Source: a virus
DNA length: 23,724 nt
IMG/VR virus record: IMGVR_UViG_3300022921_000110
Location: 1-23,724 of that record
Reading direction: 5' to 3' (one strand)
The notes under the pieces are model-generated. The model saw only the letters and a list, made by a program, of their open reading frames with translations. It was not told the DNA's origin and made no database searches. The position numbers were made by a program, and so were the translations under genes. Positions 6,247 to 18,222 of this stretch are shown here, piece after piece; the stretch's first letter is position 1; each line of letters opens with the position of its first letter.

Positions 6247-7266
6247 ATGAAACTTACTCAAGCAATTAAAGCAGTTGAAGCTATTATTAACGCAAACAAT
6301 GCACTTCCAGAAACAGCAGCAGATGCACAGTATCTTGTACCAATGCTTTGGTCTTTACCGGGCGAAGGTAAATCTGCTAGTATTGTAGCCTTAGGCGAAA
6401 AAATGAATAAAGAAGTAATTTCAGTGTTGTTTGGTCAATTTGATCCAGCTGAACTTGCAGGCTTTGCTAAGCTTTCAGAGGACCGTTCTACTTATGAACG
6501 TGCTCGTCCATTCTTCCTGCCGACTGAGGGTTCTGGTATTATCTTTCTTGATGAACTCCCTCAGTCATGTCTTGCAGCCCAAAATATCGCTGCACAGCTT
6601 GTTAATGAACGTCGCATTGGCGAACACAAACTACCTAAAGGGTGGCAAGTAGTTTGTGCAGGTAATCCTATGACCGCAAAGGCAGGAACTACTGCAATGC
6701 CATCGCATCTTAAAGATCGCTTAACACACCTTGATATTGAAACAGATCATGAAGGTTTCCGTGAATATGCTCTTGCAAAAGGTATCTCTGCTGAGATTAC
6801 TGGTTTTATTAAAGAGCGTCCTGAATGGCTTCAAAAGTTTGATCCGAAACAAAATGCTTCACCTTCTCCTCGTTCATGGGAACGTGCAGACTCTATTATT
6901 AAATTAGATTTAGATTTTCCAACTATGTGCGCATTACTTAAAGGTCAAATTGGTGAAGGTACTCTAGCAGATTTTACTGGTTATCTTAAGATTTATCGTG
7001 ATCTTAAAACTGATGAAATTATGCAAAATCCAGAGCATCATGATCTTCCAACAGATCCTTCAATTACTTATGCTTTATGTTCTGCTTTGGCACATCGTGC
7101 TAATAAGTCTAACATTAAAGATATTGTAACTATCATTAAACGTTTTGAAAATAAAGAATTTTCTGCTTTTTGTATGCGTGATTGTTTAGCTCGTAACTCT
7201 GAGTTAAAAAAAGAAAAAGTAGTAACACAATGGTTTTTAACTGAGGGTAAAGAACTTCTTTTGTAA
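6247..7266 (+). CDS. MoxR-type AAA+ ATPase
   Basis: The 339-residue ATPase has a Walker A SLPGEGKSA (K42, S43), Walker B GIIFLDEL (D102, E103), sensor-1 asparagine in VVCAGNP (N140) and an arginine-finger region SHLKDRL (R158). The dynein/MoxR-like layout, with an ATPase followed downstream by a VWA protein, matches known MoxR-VWA pairs that act as chaperone-like machines assembling or remodelling a target; N4-like phages carry a comparable pair. Here the VWA gene is at 7880. The segment from about 6480 to 6720, spanning Walker B and sensor 1, is near 47% GC, well above its surroundings. AAGGAG and a further operon gene follow directly. Confidence 0.88.
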   Translation: MKLTQAIKAVEAIINANNALPETAADAQYLVPMLWSLPGEGKSASIVALGEKMNKEVISVLFGQFDPAELAGFAKLSEDRSTYERARPFFLPTEGSGIIFLDELPQSCLAAQNIAAQLVNERRIGEHKLPKGWQVVCAGNPMTAKAGTTAMPSHLKDRLTHLDIETDHEGFREYALAKGISAEITGFIKERPEWLQKFDPKQNASPSPRSWERADSIIKLDLDFPTMCALLKGQIGEGTLADFTGYLKIYRDLKTDEIMQNPEHHDLPTDPSITYALCSALAHRANKSNIKDIVTIIKRFENKEFSAFCMRDCLARNSELKKEKVVTQWFLTEGKELLL

Positions 7267-7276
7267 GGAGTAAATA

Positions 7277-7678
7277 ATGCCAGGATTTAATCATAGAGCT
7301 TATGCAGAAGCTGCTCTCTCTTATGCAGTAACTCATAAACTTAATAAAAATTGGAAAGCAATGATTTCTAATATGGACATTGCTTTTGTTCATGGTGAAG
7401 ATGAACCGGAGCAAGTGTTTGAAAGGGTAGGAATTCCTATGAGTAAAAATAATGAATTTTATGAATGGGTTAAAAGTTTAAATTATCTTGACCGTAAAGA
7501 AAGAGCTGAGTTAGGAATATTACTAGGCCTTGCTTCTCAATTTCAATTAGCTAATGACGTAGTAATGGAAAACTATGCTACTAGGTGGTTACGTGGAAAT
7601 GATAAAAGTAAATTTTTAGAATTTATTCAGTTAGAACAAATGCTATTTAAAATGGGATTTTCAAATGACAGAATTTAA
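7277..7678 (+). CDS. Hypothetical protein of the MoxR-VWA module
   Basis: The ORF begins 10 bases after the ATPase with AAGGAG well placed before ATG 7277. The 133-residue product looks all-helical (YAEAALSYAVTHKL..., RKERAELGILLGLASQF...) with no catalytic motif. It overlaps the next gene by 14 bases. Its constant position between ATPase and VWA suggests an adaptor or accessory subunit; this is inference from context. Confidence 0.7.
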   Translation: MPGFNHRAYAEAALSYAVTHKLNKNWKAMISNMDIAFVHGEDEPEQVFERVGIPMSKNNEFYEWVKSLNYLDRKERAELGILLGLASQFQLANDVVMENYATRWLRGNDKSKFLEFIQLEQMLFKMGFSNDRI

Positions 7679-7880
7679 TAGTTGGTTAAGTGAGTTAGTT
7701 TATTTAACTTTAGAACAAAGAAGTATGTTAAGTAAATGTATGTATTTATTAACAAACCATAATGAATCTGTATCAGATGAGTGGTTATATGGCTCTCTTG
7801 AACCTCTTTCTTCTGAAGATAAAAATAAATTTATTGAGCTTTCAAATCTTATTTATATGCAAAATAAAATGGGTGTATAA
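7665..7880 (+). CDS. Small helical protein of the MoxR-VWA module
   Basis: A 71-residue acidic, helical product (MTEFNSWLSELVYLTLEQR...). It starts inside the end of the previous gene and ends in TAATG with the VWA gene, so translation of the VWA protein is probably coupled to it. It resembles its upstream neighbour in style (LSELVYLTLEQRSMLSK against VKSLNYLDRKERAELG), so the two may be diverged relatives; an alignment would be needed. Confidence 0.6.
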   Translation: MTEFNSWLSELVYLTLEQRSMLSKCMYLLTNHNESVSDEWLYGSLEPLSSEDKNKFIELSNLIYMQNKMGV

Positions 7881-9106
7881 TGGATGCAAAATTAAAGGTT
7901 TCCAGAGCCGTAACAAAACTGGCATTTGAAGTACCTTTCTTTGGCTCTTGTGCTTTATCTGTAGGTACTTTAGCAACTGACCAGATCCCTACAGCAGCTA
8001 CTGACGGTAAAACAATTTTATATAATCCTAAATTTGTAGAATCTCTTACAGAATTTCAAACAGTTGGTTTAATTTGTCATGAAGTAATGCATATTATTTT
8101 ACAGCATTGTCAACAATTTGAAATTAAAGATCCTAAGCTATGTAATATTGCTATGGATTATATAATTAATGATAGTCTTATTTATGAACAAAATATGAGC
8201 CTTCCTGAAGATGGTATTTGGGATACAGCTAGAAGTTTTAAAAATATGACTTGGCAACAAGTTTATCGTATTCTTGAAGATATTCAGAAAAAAGAAAAGG
8301 AAGAAGAATCTGGAGAAGGTGAGGGCTATAATGCAAAAAATGGTCCTGCAAATAAAGCTAAAATTTCAGAAGAAAATCAACGTGAAATTGGAAAAGTTTT
8401 AAAAGAAGCAAATCCAGAACATGTTAAAGCTTCAGATCTTTCAGATGCAGAATTAGAAGAACTTAAGCAAGATATTGAAAGAATTACTGTTAAAGCAGCA
8501 CAAGACGCTGAAAATATGGGAAAGCCAGGATCTATTCCAGGTTCTATTCGTGATCTTATTAATGAAATTAGAGATTCTAAAATACCATGGGAAGAATTTG
8601 TATTTACTACTATGCAAACTAGATTTCCTGATGATTATAGTTATCGTAGACCTAATAAAAAATATTTAGACCAAGGCTTGTATATGCCAACAGTAGAGTC
8701 TACTCGTATTAAACGATTAGCTTTTGCTTTTGATACTTCTGGTTCTGTATCTCGTGATGAGTTAATTACTTTTTTCTCAGAGTCTAATTTTCTTATTGAA
8801 CACTTTCGTCCTGAATCAGTACTTCTTATGTCAGCAGATTATGAAGTAGCAGAAGTTATAGAATTAGAAGAAGGAGAAACTATTGCAGATGGCTTTTGGT
8901 TTAAAGGTGGAGGCGGTACTTGTTTCCGTCCAGTTTTTAATTACATTGAAGAAAATGATTTAGAAATAGATCAATTAATTTATTTTTCAGATATGTATGT
9001 AAATAAACATAATTTCCCAGATAAGCATCCTGATTACGATGTTATATGGGTTAGTACAGGTGCAAATTATAATGTTCCTTTTGGTGAAATAGTAATGGTG
9101 AATTAA
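7880..9106 (+). CDS. HExxH metallopeptidase-like plus VWA domain protein
   Basis: A 408-residue protein in two parts. The N-terminal domain has LICHEVMHIILQH with an HEVMH zinc motif (residues 67-71) and MDYIINDSL (about 92-100), the pattern of the putative-metallopeptidase domain of the DUF2201 group. After an acidic, lysine-rich linker (about 134-210) comes a VWA-like domain with a MIDAS: DTSGS (285-289), GGGGTCF (343-349) and the aspartate in YFSDMY (D371). VWA domains bind metal-dependent partners and typically work with MoxR ATPases, here the gene at 6247. Target and any peptidase activity are unknown. It starts and ends in TAATG overlaps, tying it into the module. Confidence 0.85.
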   Translation: MDAKLKVSRAVTKLAFEVPFFGSCALSVGTLATDQIPTAATDGKTILYNPKFVESLTEFQTVGLICHEVMHIILQHCQQFEIKDPKLCNIAMDYIINDSLIYEQNMSLPEDGIWDTARSFKNMTWQQVYRILEDIQKKEKEEESGEGEGYNAKNGPANKAKISEENQREIGKVLKEANPEHVKASDLSDAELEELKQDIERITVKAAQDAENMGKPGSIPGSIRDLINEIRDSKIPWEEFVFTTMQTRFPDDYSYRRPNKKYLDQGLYMPTVESTRIKRLAFAFDTSGSVSRDELITFFSESNFLIEHFRPESVLLMSADYEVAEVIELEEGETIADGFWFKGGGGTCFRPVFNYIEENDLEIDQLIYFSDMYVNKHNFPDKHPDYDVIWVSTGANYNVPFGEIVMVN

Positions 9107-10101
9107 TGGGTTTTAGATATAACGAAGATTTATTTGAAAAAATTAAATTTGATGCTGATAACTTAAAAGAATTAAAAAGTTTATTAACTCTTGATTTAAA
9201 TTTAATAGCTAATCAATATAATGTTAATTTAAATACAATAATTAAAGAAACATTAAATTATAGTAAGAAAAAAATAAAAGACTCTAAAATATCAGTTTAT
9301 GATATTATTGTTATGCTAAAAGAAAGTGCAACTACTGAAGGATACTATTACCATAGTCGTAATAACTTTGTTAACATTAGCGAAGAAAATCGTCAAGTAA
9401 TTATTAATGCTGTTAATAAAAATTTTAAAATTATAAAAACTAAAACAATTTTAAATACTATTATAGAAGCTTTACAACAGCTTATTGCATGCGAATTACT
9501 TTTAGAATATGAAAATATAGATAGTACTGCTTTAAATTTTGAAGTTTCTTTAAAACAATTTCAAAACATTTTAAATAATGTTTCAAATAGTTCTACTGGT
9601 GATTTTAATTACCGAAGTAATTTAATTGCATCTTACGGAACTACTTCAGAAGTTGTTATTAATTTAACAGCAATTGAAAAAGCACAACTTCAAGATCCTA
9701 AAGTAAATAATTTTTATGGAAATAATACTAGAGATGTTTCCGTTATTATTAAAAAAGACTGGTATGAAACAGTAAAACAGAAAGAATTAACCTCTATTGA
9801 ATTAAATAATGGTAAAGTAGCTGCTGTATTAGAAGCAGAAGAAGTAAATCATAAAACTAAAGAAGATACTGTTGATCTGTTTAAACTTAAAGTTCTTTAT
9901 GTAAAAGTCCCTAATAATATTCAATTATGGAGAAATAATAGTAAAGAAAATTTTGAAAAATGTATTTTTGTAGAAGATCTTTATTTTGCTAAAGATACTA
10001 CAGATACAACTCGTTTTGCAACAGGTACAACACCAGGCCGTGCTATAGGTACTCTTAACCGACGTGCTAAAAAAGATATGTTTGATTTAATGGGTATTTA
10101 A
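9106..10101 (+). CDS. Unknown 331-residue protein of the MoxR-VWA module
   Basis: The ORF is joined to the VWA gene by TAATG. The N-terminal half is helical and Asn/Lys/Ile-rich (ADNLKELKSLLTLDLNLIA...), the middle has strand-rich segments (GKVAAVLEAEEVNH, LFKLKVLYVKVP), and the C-terminus has a distinctive FATGTTPGRAIGTLNRRAKK (about residues 304-323) that looks conserved and basic. No known motif. Tight coupling suggests it is a third component or the substrate of the ATPase-VWA machine; this is inference. It is more AT-rich than the ATPase gene. Confidence 0.75.
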   Translation: MGFRYNEDLFEKIKFDADNLKELKSLLTLDLNLIANQYNVNLNTIIKETLNYSKKKIKDSKISVYDIIVMLKESATTEGYYYHSRNNFVNISEENRQVIINAVNKNFKIIKTKTILNTIIEALQQLIACELLLEYENIDSTALNFEVSLKQFQNILNNVSNSSTGDFNYRSNLIASYGTTSEVVINLTAIEKAQLQDPKVNNFYGNNTRDVSVIIKKDWYETVKQKELTSIELNNGKVAAVLEAEEVNHKTKEDTVDLFKLKVLYVKVPNNIQLWRNNSKENFEKCIFVEDLYFAKDTTDTTRFATGTTPGRAIGTLNRRAKKDMFDLMGI

Positions 10102-10461: not shown

Positions 10462-11001
10462 ATGAGTAAAAAATATGATGCGTTTGTTTATAAATGGACG
10501 TGTAAAAGCACAGGTAAAGAATATGTAGGTTATCATGTAGGTAATCCTGAAGATGGCTATAAATTTTCATCTGACAAATTACAAACTTTATATGATAAAC
10601 AACCTGATAATTTTGAACGTAAAATTTTAGCTATTGGTACTGCAGAAGAAATGAAAGCTTTTGAAACAGGATATTTAAGAGCAGTAGACGCTAAAAATAA
10701 TGATGATTATTATAATAAGCATAATAATGATGAAGCTTATGTTTTAACAGCTAAATCTGTTTGTAATAATAATATTAAAACTATTGAAGCTACATTAGAT
10801 CAAATTGATACTCATAAAGTAGGAAAGAAAAACTTTTTTAGATTATGGATTGGTGGAGAGACTTTAAACTGTGCTAGTTATAAAGTTAGTGCTGAACAAG
10901 GCGCTAACCTTTATTTATTAATAGGAAAAAAGATTAGAGTAGATGCTACTTTAGTTGGTGACTATTGGTATTTTTATCCTGAGAATGTAAAGGAAGTATA
11001 A
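10462..11001 (+). CDS. GIY-YIG nuclease-like protein with extra C-terminal domain
   Basis: A 179-residue protein preceded by AAAGGAA. The first 90 residues follow the phage Seg-type GIY-YIG layout: FVYKWTCKSTGKEYVGYH, with FVY (8-10) and YVG (21-23) in the GIY and YIG places, DGYKFSS (31-37), FERKIL, and FETGYLRAVDA with E68 at the metal-binding glutamate position, then DDYYNKHN. The second half (about 113-179) is strand-rich (FFRLWIGGETLNC, KKIRVDATLVGDYWYFYP), resembling a small beta-barrel rather than the usual NUMOD repeats. It may be a mobile homing endonuclease, or a domesticated nuclease for host DNA or recombination. The conserved arginine of the family was not confidently placed, so activity is uncertain. 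Confidence 0.68.
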   Translation: MSKKYDAFVYKWTCKSTGKEYVGYHVGNPEDGYKFSSDKLQTLYDKQPDNFERKILAIGTAEEMKAFETGYLRAVDAKNNDDYYNKHNNDEAYVLTAKSVCNNNIKTIEATLDQIDTHKVGKKNFFRLWIGGETLNCASYKVSAEQGANLYLLIGKKIRVDATLVGDYWYFYPENVKEV

Positions 11002-11162
11002 TGTTTTATTATTATAATATTTTTTGTAATGGTGAATATTTAGGACAAGTAAAAGCATTAAATGAAAAAAGCGCTTGTGAACAGTATTATATGAAATATG
11101 GATCTGCAAGCAAATATACAGGGTTAGCTAGAAATTCTTTTACAGCAGAAAAAGTAAAGTAA
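11001..11162 (+). CDS. Small Tyr-rich protein, 53 residues
   Basis: The ORF starts in TAATG. The product (MFYYYNIFCNGEYLGQVKA...YGSASKYTGLARNSF) has a strand-like N-terminus and a short helix; it ends one base before the metallopeptidase ATG. Coupling supports a real gene; no family recognised. Confidence 0.55.
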   Translation: MFYYYNIFCNGEYLGQVKALNEKSACEQYYMKYGSASKYTGLARNSFTAEKVK

Positions 11163-11163
11163 A

Positions 11164-11568
11164 ATGAAAACAATTCAAAATTTATTTAATGATATGAATG
11201 AAAAGCTTCTTCCTTTTCTTTGTAAAGATTTAAAAACAGAAAATATTCCAAATGTATTAATTGATTTACAAATAGTAAATGATAGTGATCTAGATGGAAG
11301 TAGTGGTATGCAAGCGGCTACTATCCATTTAGGTTACGAAGAACTTTTTGGAATGGAAGTGTTTGAAATTGAATGTGTAAAATCTTTAACTCAAGATATT
11401 GAAGCTTTTAAAACAATGGTAGCTCACGAATTAGTGCATGTTATGCAACATCTTAGGGGAGACAAATTTAATTACGAACTCCCTTACAATGAACAAACGC
11501 ATGAGATTGAAGCTTATGCAAAAGAAAAAGAGTTAGTAAACTATTATGAAAGCAAATGTAGACGGTGA
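11164..11568 (+). CDS. Small HExxH zinc metallopeptidase-like protein
   Basis: A 134-residue protein with VAHELVHVMQH (HELVH at residues 88-92) followed by QTHEIEAYA (111-119), where a glutamate could be the third zinc ligand, a gluzincin-like or SprT-like spacing. The N-terminal part is strand-rich (NVLIDLQIVNDSDL...). No signal peptide is seen, so it would act in the cytoplasm. It overlaps the exonuclease start by 23 bases and carries two cysteine-containing C-terminal residues (ESKCRR). The substrate is unknown; one possibility is a host or defence protein. It is the second HExxH protein in this window. Confidence 0.7.
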   Translation: MKTIQNLFNDMNEKLLPFLCKDLKTENIPNVLIDLQIVNDSDLDGSSGMQAATIHLGYEELFGMEVFEIECVKSLTQDIEAFKTMVAHELVHVMQHLRGDKFNYELPYNEQTHEIEAYAKEKELVNYYESKCRR

Positions 11569-16227: not shown

Positions 16228-18222
16228 ATGGAATATTTTGGTATAACTATTGTACCCGAGCGCGATGAGTTACTAACCGATTATGCTCGTGGAATGCTAA
16301 TGGATTTTTATTCAATTGATGGAGAAAAATCCCCTCAAGAATTATTTGCTAGAGCAAGTATTGCTTGGTCTACTTTTAAGAGTAAAACAGATTATGACTT
16401 GGCGCAACGATTATATAACGCAGTCTCCCAAAAGTGGTTTATGTTCTCATCGCCTGTGCTTTCGAATGCCCCGCATCCTGAAACCGGTAAATCCTCCGGG
16501 ATGCCCATCTCGTGCTTCCTTGCCTATGTACCCGATACAGTGGAAGGACTCATTGAACATTCATCCGAATTACGGTGGCTCAGTGTTATGGGCGGTGGAG
16601 TTGGGGGTCATTGGAATAATGTACGTTCTGTGTCTGAAAAATCGCCAGGTCCGATCCCTTTCCTCGCTACAGTAGACGCAGATATGACTGCTTATAAACA
16701 AGGTAAAACTCGTAAAGGTTCTTATGCCGCATATCTTGATGTACATCATCCAGATATCTTAGAATTCATGCAAATTAGAGTACCTACTGGTGATGATAAT
16801 CGTAAATGTTTAAATCTACATAATGGTGTAAATTTAACTAATGATTTTATGGAAGCAGTTATTAATAATCTAGAATATGAATTAGTTGACCCTAATAAAG
16901 GACCAACTGGAGAATTTTTAAAAGCTAGAAAAATTTGGCAACAATTATTAGAAATTCGTTTTAGAACTGGAGAGCCTTATTTTAATTTTATTGATCATGC
17001 AAATGATGCTTTACCTGAGCCTTTACGAAGAAAAGGACTAAAAATTAATGGTTCAAATTTGTGTAATGAAATTCATTTACCTACCGATGAAACACGTACT
17101 GCCGTTTGTTGCTTATCATCTCTCAACTTGGAAGAGTATGAAGCTTGGCGAGATACAAATCTTGTCGCAGACCTTATCACAATGCTGGATAATGTACTTG
17201 AATACTTTATTGAAAATGCACCAGAGGTATTGCGTAGAGCAATCTATTCAGCTAAACAAGAGCGTTCTTTGGGGCTTGGTGCAATGGGGTTCCATAGCTT
17301 ATTACAAAAGAGTAGAATTGCCTTTGAAAGTAACGAAGCAATAGCTCTTAATAATGAAGTTTTTCAGGTAATTAAATATGATGCTGATAAACAATCTCGT
17401 AAACTTGCTAATTTACGTGGTGAATATCTTGATGGTTTTGGAACTGGCCGTCGTAATAGCCATCTTCTTGCTATTGCCCCTAATGCTAGCAGTGGCATTT
17501 TACTGTCTACCTCTCCTTCTATAGAGCCTTTAAAAGCTAATGCTTATACTCATCGTACTCGTGCGGGTTCCTTCTTAGTTAAAAATAAATATTTAGAAGA
17601 AGTATTAAGTAACTATGATAAAAATGATCAAGTCACTTGGTCTTCCATTATTACAACGAAAGGATCTGTCCAACACTTGGATTTCTTATCATCCGAAGAA
17701 AAAGAAATATTTAAAACAGCAACAGAACTTGATCAGTGCTGGATCATTGATCACGCCGCAGATCGTCAACAATACGTCTGTCAAGGTCAAAGCGTTAACT
17801 TATTCTTTCATCCCGGAGTCGAAAAGTCCTTGGTTAGTCGTGTCCACCTTCGAGCATGGCAAAGAGGCCTCAAAGGTCTTTACTATTTGCGCACAGAAGC
17901 CAAGTCTAGAGCAGAGAATGTTGCTGAAAAGGTTGAACGTAAAGCATTGGCAGATGATGCCTCAACAATTATTTATGGCAAAGAAACATGTCCATACTGT
18001 ATTGCAACAAAAGAAGAACTTACGATACGTAATATTCCATTCGAATACATTGATCTCGATCTTATCGGTAAAACAGCCTCACAGGTTACAGGTAGAGACG
18101 TTAACACTGTACCGCAAATTTATCTCCAAGGTAAATATATAGAAAATGGTTATACAGGTTTAATGGAATACTTTGGAAATGACCAAACAGAAAACGACGA
18201 ATGTAAAGCCTGCGAAGGCTAA
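16228..18222 (+). CDS. nrdA: Ribonucleotide reductase large subunit fused to glutaredoxin
   Basis: A 664-residue class I RNR alpha chain. Active-site residues: C96 in SGMPISCFL, SNLCNEI (N277, C279, E281), C294 or C295 in AVCCLSSLNLEEY, and the radical-transfer pair Y552-Y553 in GLKGLYYLRT. The usual N-terminal ATP-cone is missing, so overall activity control by dATP is probably lost. From about residue 578 a glutaredoxin follows: TIIYGKETCPYC (C588, C591), NTVPQIYLQGKYIENGYTGL. The chain then ends ECKACEG, a CxxC (C659, C662) like the redox tail normally found at the end of NrdA. Fusion of reductant and enzyme is inferred to supply electrons in cis. The segment 16430-16690 (residues 68-154) is about 50% GC and another GC-richer stretch covers 17700-17940. 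Partner is nrdB at 19010. Confidence 0.95.
   Translation: MEYFGITIVPERDELLTDYARGMLMDFYSIDGEKSPQELFARASIAWSTFKSKTDYDLAQRLYNAVSQKWFMFSSPVLSNAPHPETGKSSGMPISCFLAYVPDTVEGLIEHSSELRWLSVMGGGVGGHWNNVRSVSEKSPGPIPFLATVDADMTAYKQGKTRKGSYAAYLDVHHPDILEFMQIRVPTGDDNRKCLNLHNGVNLTNDFMEAVINNLEYELVDPNKGPTGEFLKARKIWQQLLEIRFRTGEPYFNFIDHANDALPEPLRRKGLKINGSNLCNEIHLPTDETRTAVCCLSSLNLEEYEAWRDTNLVADLITMLDNVLEYFIENAPEVLRRAIYSAKQERSLGLGAMGFHSLLQKSRIAFESNEAIALNNEVFQVIKYDADKQSRKLANLRGEYLDGFGTGRRNSHLLAIAPNASSGILLSTSPSIEPLKANAYTHRTRAGSFLVKNKYLEEVLSNYDKNDQVTWSSIITTKGSVQHLDFLSSEEKEIFKTATELDQCWIIDHAADRQQYVCQGQSVNLFFHPGVEKSLVSRVHLRAWQRGLKGLYYLRTEAKSRAENVAEKVERKALADDASTIIYGKETCPYCIATKEELTIRNIPFEYIDLDLIGKTASQVTGRDVNTVPQIYLQGKYIENGYTGLMEYFGNDQTENDECKACEG

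Follow-up and report, generated by a model that had tools for sequence, protein, structure and literature searches.

A 23.7 kb virus record from a marine phage (IMG/VR record IMGVR_UViG_3300022921_000110, whose full 23,724 nucleotides we call the window) carries at positions 6247-10101, on the plus strand, a MoxR-type AAA+ ATPase, a protein that joins a putative zincin-type domain to a VWA domain, and a third protein, the product of open reading frame 5 (ORF5), whose family is, as far as sequence comparison can tell, new. The MoxR-VWA pair itself is already known in many phages; ORF5 is the new part, and the module is a three-component variant of that pair. Our preferred reading, held tentatively, is that the three proteins would form an ATP-driven protein-remodelling machine acting early or midway through infection on a non-virion target, with ORF5 most likely serving as a dedicated client-recognition adaptor. 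Such a machine is of interest because MoxR-DUF2201 pairs match hundreds of phage records and are core in a whole phage family, and we found no experimentally known phage job for them. ORF5, which always stands beside the pair in one large phage group, offers a handle on what the machine recognises.

The two known components are well defined. Gene 1 (6247-7266, 339 amino acids) is by its motifs a MoxR-type AAA+ ATPase; its Walker A and Walker B are both intact. It is assigned to phrog_1297 (E 2e-73) and along its entire length shares 39% identity with the MoxR ATPase of Roseobacter phage CRP-7, the closest named relative of the window phage as judged by the primase (52% identity). Pfam AAA models match the window protein only weakly and below cut-off, and its bpMoxR match is also below cut-off; its orthologues pass PF00004. 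Among 40 diverse, dereplicated homologues, G39 and K42 of the Walker A motif GEGKS (residues 39-43, 6361-6375) and the Walker B acids D102-E103 (6550-6555) are invariant. Gene 4 (7880-9106, 408 amino acids, phrog_1314) encodes a fusion of a putative zincin-type domain with a VWA domain whose metal-ion-dependent adhesion site (MIDAS) is complete, an assignment that draws on Pfam, an AlphaFold2 model and a fold search. Pfam places the putative metallopeptidase domain DUF2201_N (PF13203) at E 2.8e-42 (145.7 bits against a cut-off of 23.2) and the DUF2201 VWA-like domain (PF09967) at E 3.6e-16 (59.9 bits against 26.4). With the AlphaFold2 model (mean predicted local distance difference test score, pLDDT, 84), Foldseek retrieves VWA domains, including those of NorD and human MDN1-MIDAS, and weakly the metallopeptidase jannalysin (E 0.05); one homologue, at locus L066 of our sample, additionally exceeds the Peptidase_M48 cut-off. 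The zinc-binding motif HEVMH occupies residues 67-71 (8078-8092), and D93 (8156-8158), 22 residues past the HExxH and placed with it on successive helices in the model, is a candidate third zinc ligand. The MIDAS motif DTSGS (residues 285-289, 8732-8746) is completed by T347 and D371. Across 53 dereplicated homologues, N4 gp25 and jumbo-phage proteins among them, H67, E68, H71, N89, D93 and N97 are invariant, as are the MIDAS residues D285, S287, S289, T347 and D371; the A2 pattern used to scan for VWA genes includes the HExxH, which makes the conservation of that motif in part a result of how the proteins were selected, and the loci reached through the third protein and the named phages, which are free of that bias, also retain every residue.

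An earlier, sequence-only reading of the window had described five open reading frames joined by short spacers and TAATG overlaps, a MoxR/VWA pairing for which it named K42, HEVMH and D285, and a comparable pair in N4-like phages. The DNA confirms the layout and the motif positions, the invariance across homologues shows that the motifs are not there by chance, and the domain matches and homology to N4 gp24/gp25 bear out the pairing, the intact zincin motif and MIDAS, and the N4 parallel. Gene 4 has a misleading name elsewhere: phrog_1314 and RefSeq phage records, including that of N4 gp25, call this family "HNH endonuclease". Pfam returned only DUF2201_N and DUF2201, and no HNH domain, for both the window protein and N4 gp25, and we regard the label as an unsupported, propagated misannotation. 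Both genes are widespread, with tblastn matches in 780 phage records for the ATPase and 578 for the VWA protein, and the VWA gene is found on plasmids too.

Searches of PADLOC, PHROGs and NCBIfam returned no match for ORF5 (9106-10101, 331 amino acids), and Pfam returned no convincing one; the same holds for 39 members of its family searched against PHROGs and Pfam. In the AlphaFold2 model of ORF5 (mean pLDDT 75) the N-terminal part is helical, confidence is low in the middle, and the C-terminal alpha/beta domain (residues 212-331, 9739-10098) is for the most part modelled confidently. This domain is a conserved block, ends in GTTPGRAIGTLNRRAKKDMF and has no fold match in the PDB; Foldseek against the PDB gave a best E of only 0.3 and a PDB sequence search nothing better than E 0.04. 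A BFVD search returned one match, an unnamed 321-amino-acid protein that is probably CRP-7 gp16, judging by length. That protein, encoded directly after the CRP-7 VWA gene, is a distant homologue (BLAST E 4e-5, with a common C-terminal motif). We define the family by a C-terminal domain of the form W..V..L...G..A.vL / GTT..A..TL.RR.K encoded downstream of a DUF2201 VWA gene, and ORF5 has both features. With an iterated profile, nearly all related loci yield an ORF5 homologue. As a safeguard against drift of the profile we compared non-iterated subgroup alignments with each other: subgroups A4 and A5 match over nearly their full length (E 3.5e-30), the L018 clade matches A4 at E 8e-8, and the window's clade matches the L018 clade at E 2.7e-5 and A4 at just E 0.004. 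Given these values, the window's ORF5 joins the broad family through a chain of matches (CRP-7, L018), by way of its C-terminal domain together with its position. The downstream proteins at L028, L031 and L036 have only the C-terminal motif in common (E 4e-4) and are tentative members; MM2_64 of phage MinM2, suggested by position, is unsupported as a homologue (hhalign probability 3%). Scanning 84,980 bacterial and archaeal genomes with a degenerate pattern, which detects only fairly close relatives, found none, and tblastn of named phages with four different family members found none besides CRP-7.

What ties ORF5 to the pair is linkage. The loci, on viral contigs, come from pattern scans seeded by this family, and the counts describe that sample and not prevalence across all phages. 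Starting from the VWA gene, MoxR lies upstream in 70 of 70 loci with room for it and the third protein downstream in 50 of 53; the three misses (L028, L031 and L036) carry at that position a gene of 369-389 amino acids whose C-terminal motif is similar. Starting from the third protein, the VWA gene lies upstream in 41/41 and MoxR in 37/37. ORF5 homologues are linked to MoxR-VWA in all sampled loci, with both partners present at every one of the 43 dereplicated loci that carry one, even as the VWA gene and the third gene stand anywhere from 0 to about 2.8 kb apart and the surroundings vary: a polymerase lies upstream in the window but downstream in L018, L031 and L036 have Nrd genes upstream, and the largest clade has a convergent primase-helicase. 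Over the 43 triples, median pairwise identity is 54% for MoxR, 49% for VWA and 17% for the third protein, and evolutionary distances correlate at rho 0.85 (MoxR-VWA), 0.73 (VWA-third) and 0.64 (MoxR-third); shared ancestry contributes to these values, which therefore show joint inheritance and not contact. The pair also occurs alone. ORF5 homologues were not detected in N4, phiFa, EcP1, S-TIM5, MinM2, phage G, PJN101, PA5oct or RHph_N38, and N4, phiFa, phage G, PA5oct and S-TIM5 have MoxR and VWA without it. DSS3_VP1 and Kolga, whose primases are 44-50% identical to the window's, lack the VWA gene, which suggests that the module behaves like a cassette. The earlier proposal that all five genes form one conserved unit fails for ORF2 and ORF3, which are confined to the closest relatives, and holds for MoxR, VWA and ORF5. 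Its suggestion that the third large protein is part of the machine gains support from the linkage. Independent occurrence, which it had taken as evidence against a unit, is seen on one side only: the pair is found without ORF5, and ORF5 was not found without the pair. Overall that interpretation is partly supported.

How might such a machine work? In NorQ-NorD (PMC13036017), the MoxR hexamer takes a finger of the VWA protein into its pore, and the VWA partner is proposed to be twisted and stretched as ATP is hydrolysed. By analogy, the window's ATPase may form a hexamer that grips its VWA partner through a finger in the pore; the MIDAS would hold an acidic side chain of the client, or ORF5 would engage the client instead; ATP hydrolysis would pull or twist the client; and the zincin domain may clip a segment exposed in this way. 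For ORF5 our first choice is a dedicated client-recognition adaptor and our second the client itself. We lean towards an adaptor because ORF5 is the last gene of the cassette, diverges far more quickly than MoxR and VWA, and was not found without them. The machine would probably be made early or mid-infection together with replication and nucleotide genes, and its target would be a protein, of the host or of the phage, that takeover or replication requires. We favour early or middle action over virion maturation because several phages carry the module amid their replication genes: it sits among replication or nucleotide genes in the window, in CRP-7, in L018, in L031 and in the convergent-primase clade. 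A bolder version, that ORF5 founds a new phage family of target-selecting subunits for a widespread AAA+/VWA/metallopeptidase protease system, diverging rapidly while motor and protease stay constant, strikes us as possible and rather doubtful. Several points weigh against our preferred reading. The machine's activity is a prediction from sequence, and HExxH domains can bind metal without being proteases. Many phages have the pair without ORF5, which is thus dispensable for the core chemistry. The correlated distances may stem from shared phage ancestry alone, fast evolution of ORF5 could reflect weak constraint instead of target recognition, and the timing of expression is deduced from gene order.

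Of the other explanations, the one that survives best, unlikely as we think it is, is a chaperone/peptidase for virion maturation, in which MoxR-VWA would remodel and cut structural proteins and ORF5 would be a minor virion protein or a scaffold substrate. Iyer et al. 2021 (PMC7824862) put forward a virion role in jumbo phages, for which the archaeal virus ATV is a precedent; the PA5oct ATPase record carries an electrospray tandem mass spectrometry (ESI-MS/MS) note, and in S-TIM5 the neighbours of the pair bear annotations as virion structural proteins. The module, however, lies amid replication or early genes in the window, in CRP-7, in N4 and at most of the loci examined, and ORF5 matches no structural-protein family. 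Somewhat less probable still is a counter-defence or host-shutoff device that disables a host defence or regulatory protein, with ORF5 as its rapidly changing target-recognition part. The fast evolution of ORF5 would fit, as would the cassette-like presence of the module, with similar primases in phages that lack the VWA gene; but counter-defence genes are typically patchy, whereas gp24/gp25 belong to the core of all Schitoviridae (PMC7650795), and we found no PADLOC or anti-defence similarity. Membership of the module in a defence system was likewise considered and dropped, as PADLOC gave no match. One might also expect a MoxR-VWA pair to insert metal cofactors, in the manner of NorQD or CoxDE, into a metalloenzyme of the phage, for example ribonucleotide reductase, the metal being carried by the HExxH domain. 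The nearest mechanistic precedents are indeed metal-insertion machines (PMC13036017), the window phage encodes NrdA and NrdB, and these two genes stand immediately upstream of MoxR in L031 and L036. Yet DSS3_VP1 has NrdA/NrdB and no VWA gene, CRP-7 has the module and an annotated reductase of the adenosylcobalamin type, and the fetched stretch of many module loci holds no Nrd gene, so that we give metal insertion little credence. It is similarly improbable that ORF5 is a passenger, functionally unconnected with MoxR-VWA and kept by synteny as a neighbour within a single phage lineage. In favour of this, every locus was reached by pattern scans built around one protein family, a single ancestor could underlie them all, and named phages except CRP-7 lack ORF5. 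Against it, the linkage holds at 17% median identity, across intervening genes of 0 to 2.8 kb and in three or more kinds of surroundings, and the search turned up no unlinked copy.

The remaining two genes of the module are small. ORF2 (7277-7678, 133 amino acids) is a helical protein whose C-terminal half is paralogous to ORF3 (7665-7880, 71 amino acids); the two are tandem paralogues (BLAST E 9e-8), their profiles match close relatives only and no distant ones, and they are probably lineage-specific accessory helical proteins. Comparison with the small tandem genes of the L018 clade gave no significant match (hhalign probability 6%). The small genes between MoxR and VWA differ in other lineages, with two to four in tandem in the L018 group. 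One uncultivated relative (L026, 7666-7983) has a thioredoxin-like gene there. In Synechococcus phage MinM2 (L098, 9248-11187) the interval holds a gene annotated as DUF3150, a label not reproduced by our Pfam scan, and three similar tandem small genes (111-115 amino acids), a further case of small-gene expansion. In the window, MoxR and ORF2 are separated by a 10-nucleotide spacer containing AAGGAG, ORF2 and ORF3 overlap by 14 nucleotides, and TAATG overlaps join ORF3 to VWA and VWA to ORF5. A promoter and terminator scan was uninformative, with promoter-like sites not in excess of shuffles and terminators at 9 against 7.1, and upstream RNA folding showed nothing unusual. Among the 20 window proteins scanned we recognised a gp2.5-like single-stranded DNA-binding protein, a family A DNA polymerase, an exonuclease, a primase-helicase, a dCMP deaminase, NrdA, NrdB and an AAA+ protein, and no structural genes. 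NrdA, the ribonucleotide reductase large subunit (16228-18222), has a glutaredoxin domain fused C-terminally (residues 581-638). Directly after the module lies a 179-amino-acid protein (10462-11001) with a weak N-terminal GIY-YIG/SegE-like match, conserved in L013, and just downstream of the module is a second small protein (134 amino acids, 11164-11568) with an HExxH motif (HELVHVMQH), no Pfam match and a counterpart in L013 (11128-11523).

The module can be set beside several known systems. N4 gp24/gp25, which rank among 17 conserved proteins of the Schitoviridae (PMC7650795), are a homologous MoxR ATPase and DUF2201 metallopeptidase-VWA protein in the same order and strand as in the window; N4 differs in having no detectable ORF5 homologue and a single small ORF in the MoxR-VWA interval, an unannotated 59-codon frame (L004 2984-3163, N4 record 10983-11162) that is not shown to be a gene. 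N4 and these genes go unmentioned in the CRISPRi-ART paper. The jumbo-phage pair, for which Iyer et al. 2021 proposed virion assembly with proteolysis (PMC7824862), has the same two-protein architecture as the window's; no third component is named there, and PA5oct and phage G have no detectable ORF5. NorQ/NorD, RavA/ViaA, CbbQ/CbbO and CoxD/CoxE likewise combine a MoxR ATPase with a MIDAS VWA partner (PMC13036017), whereas NorQ/NorD-type machines are described without the DUF2201_N zincin domain and have respiratory or carbon-fixation enzymes as targets. The MoxR-vWA ternary conflict systems of Kaur et al. 2020 (PMC7159879) resemble the window in adding a dedicated third protein to MoxR and vWA, but they are bacterial whereas the window's module is in a phage, and the Pfam families of their third proteins (such as VMAP, beta-propeller or iSTAND) have no match in ORF5 or 38 homologues. 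In CRP-7, gp07, gp15 and gp16 are MoxR, VWA and, immediately after VWA as in the window, an ORF5 homologue; unlike the window, CRP-7 has at least six unrelated small genes, one MazG-like, between MoxR and VWA. It is in CRP-7-like phages that the question of what the machine recognises can be tested.

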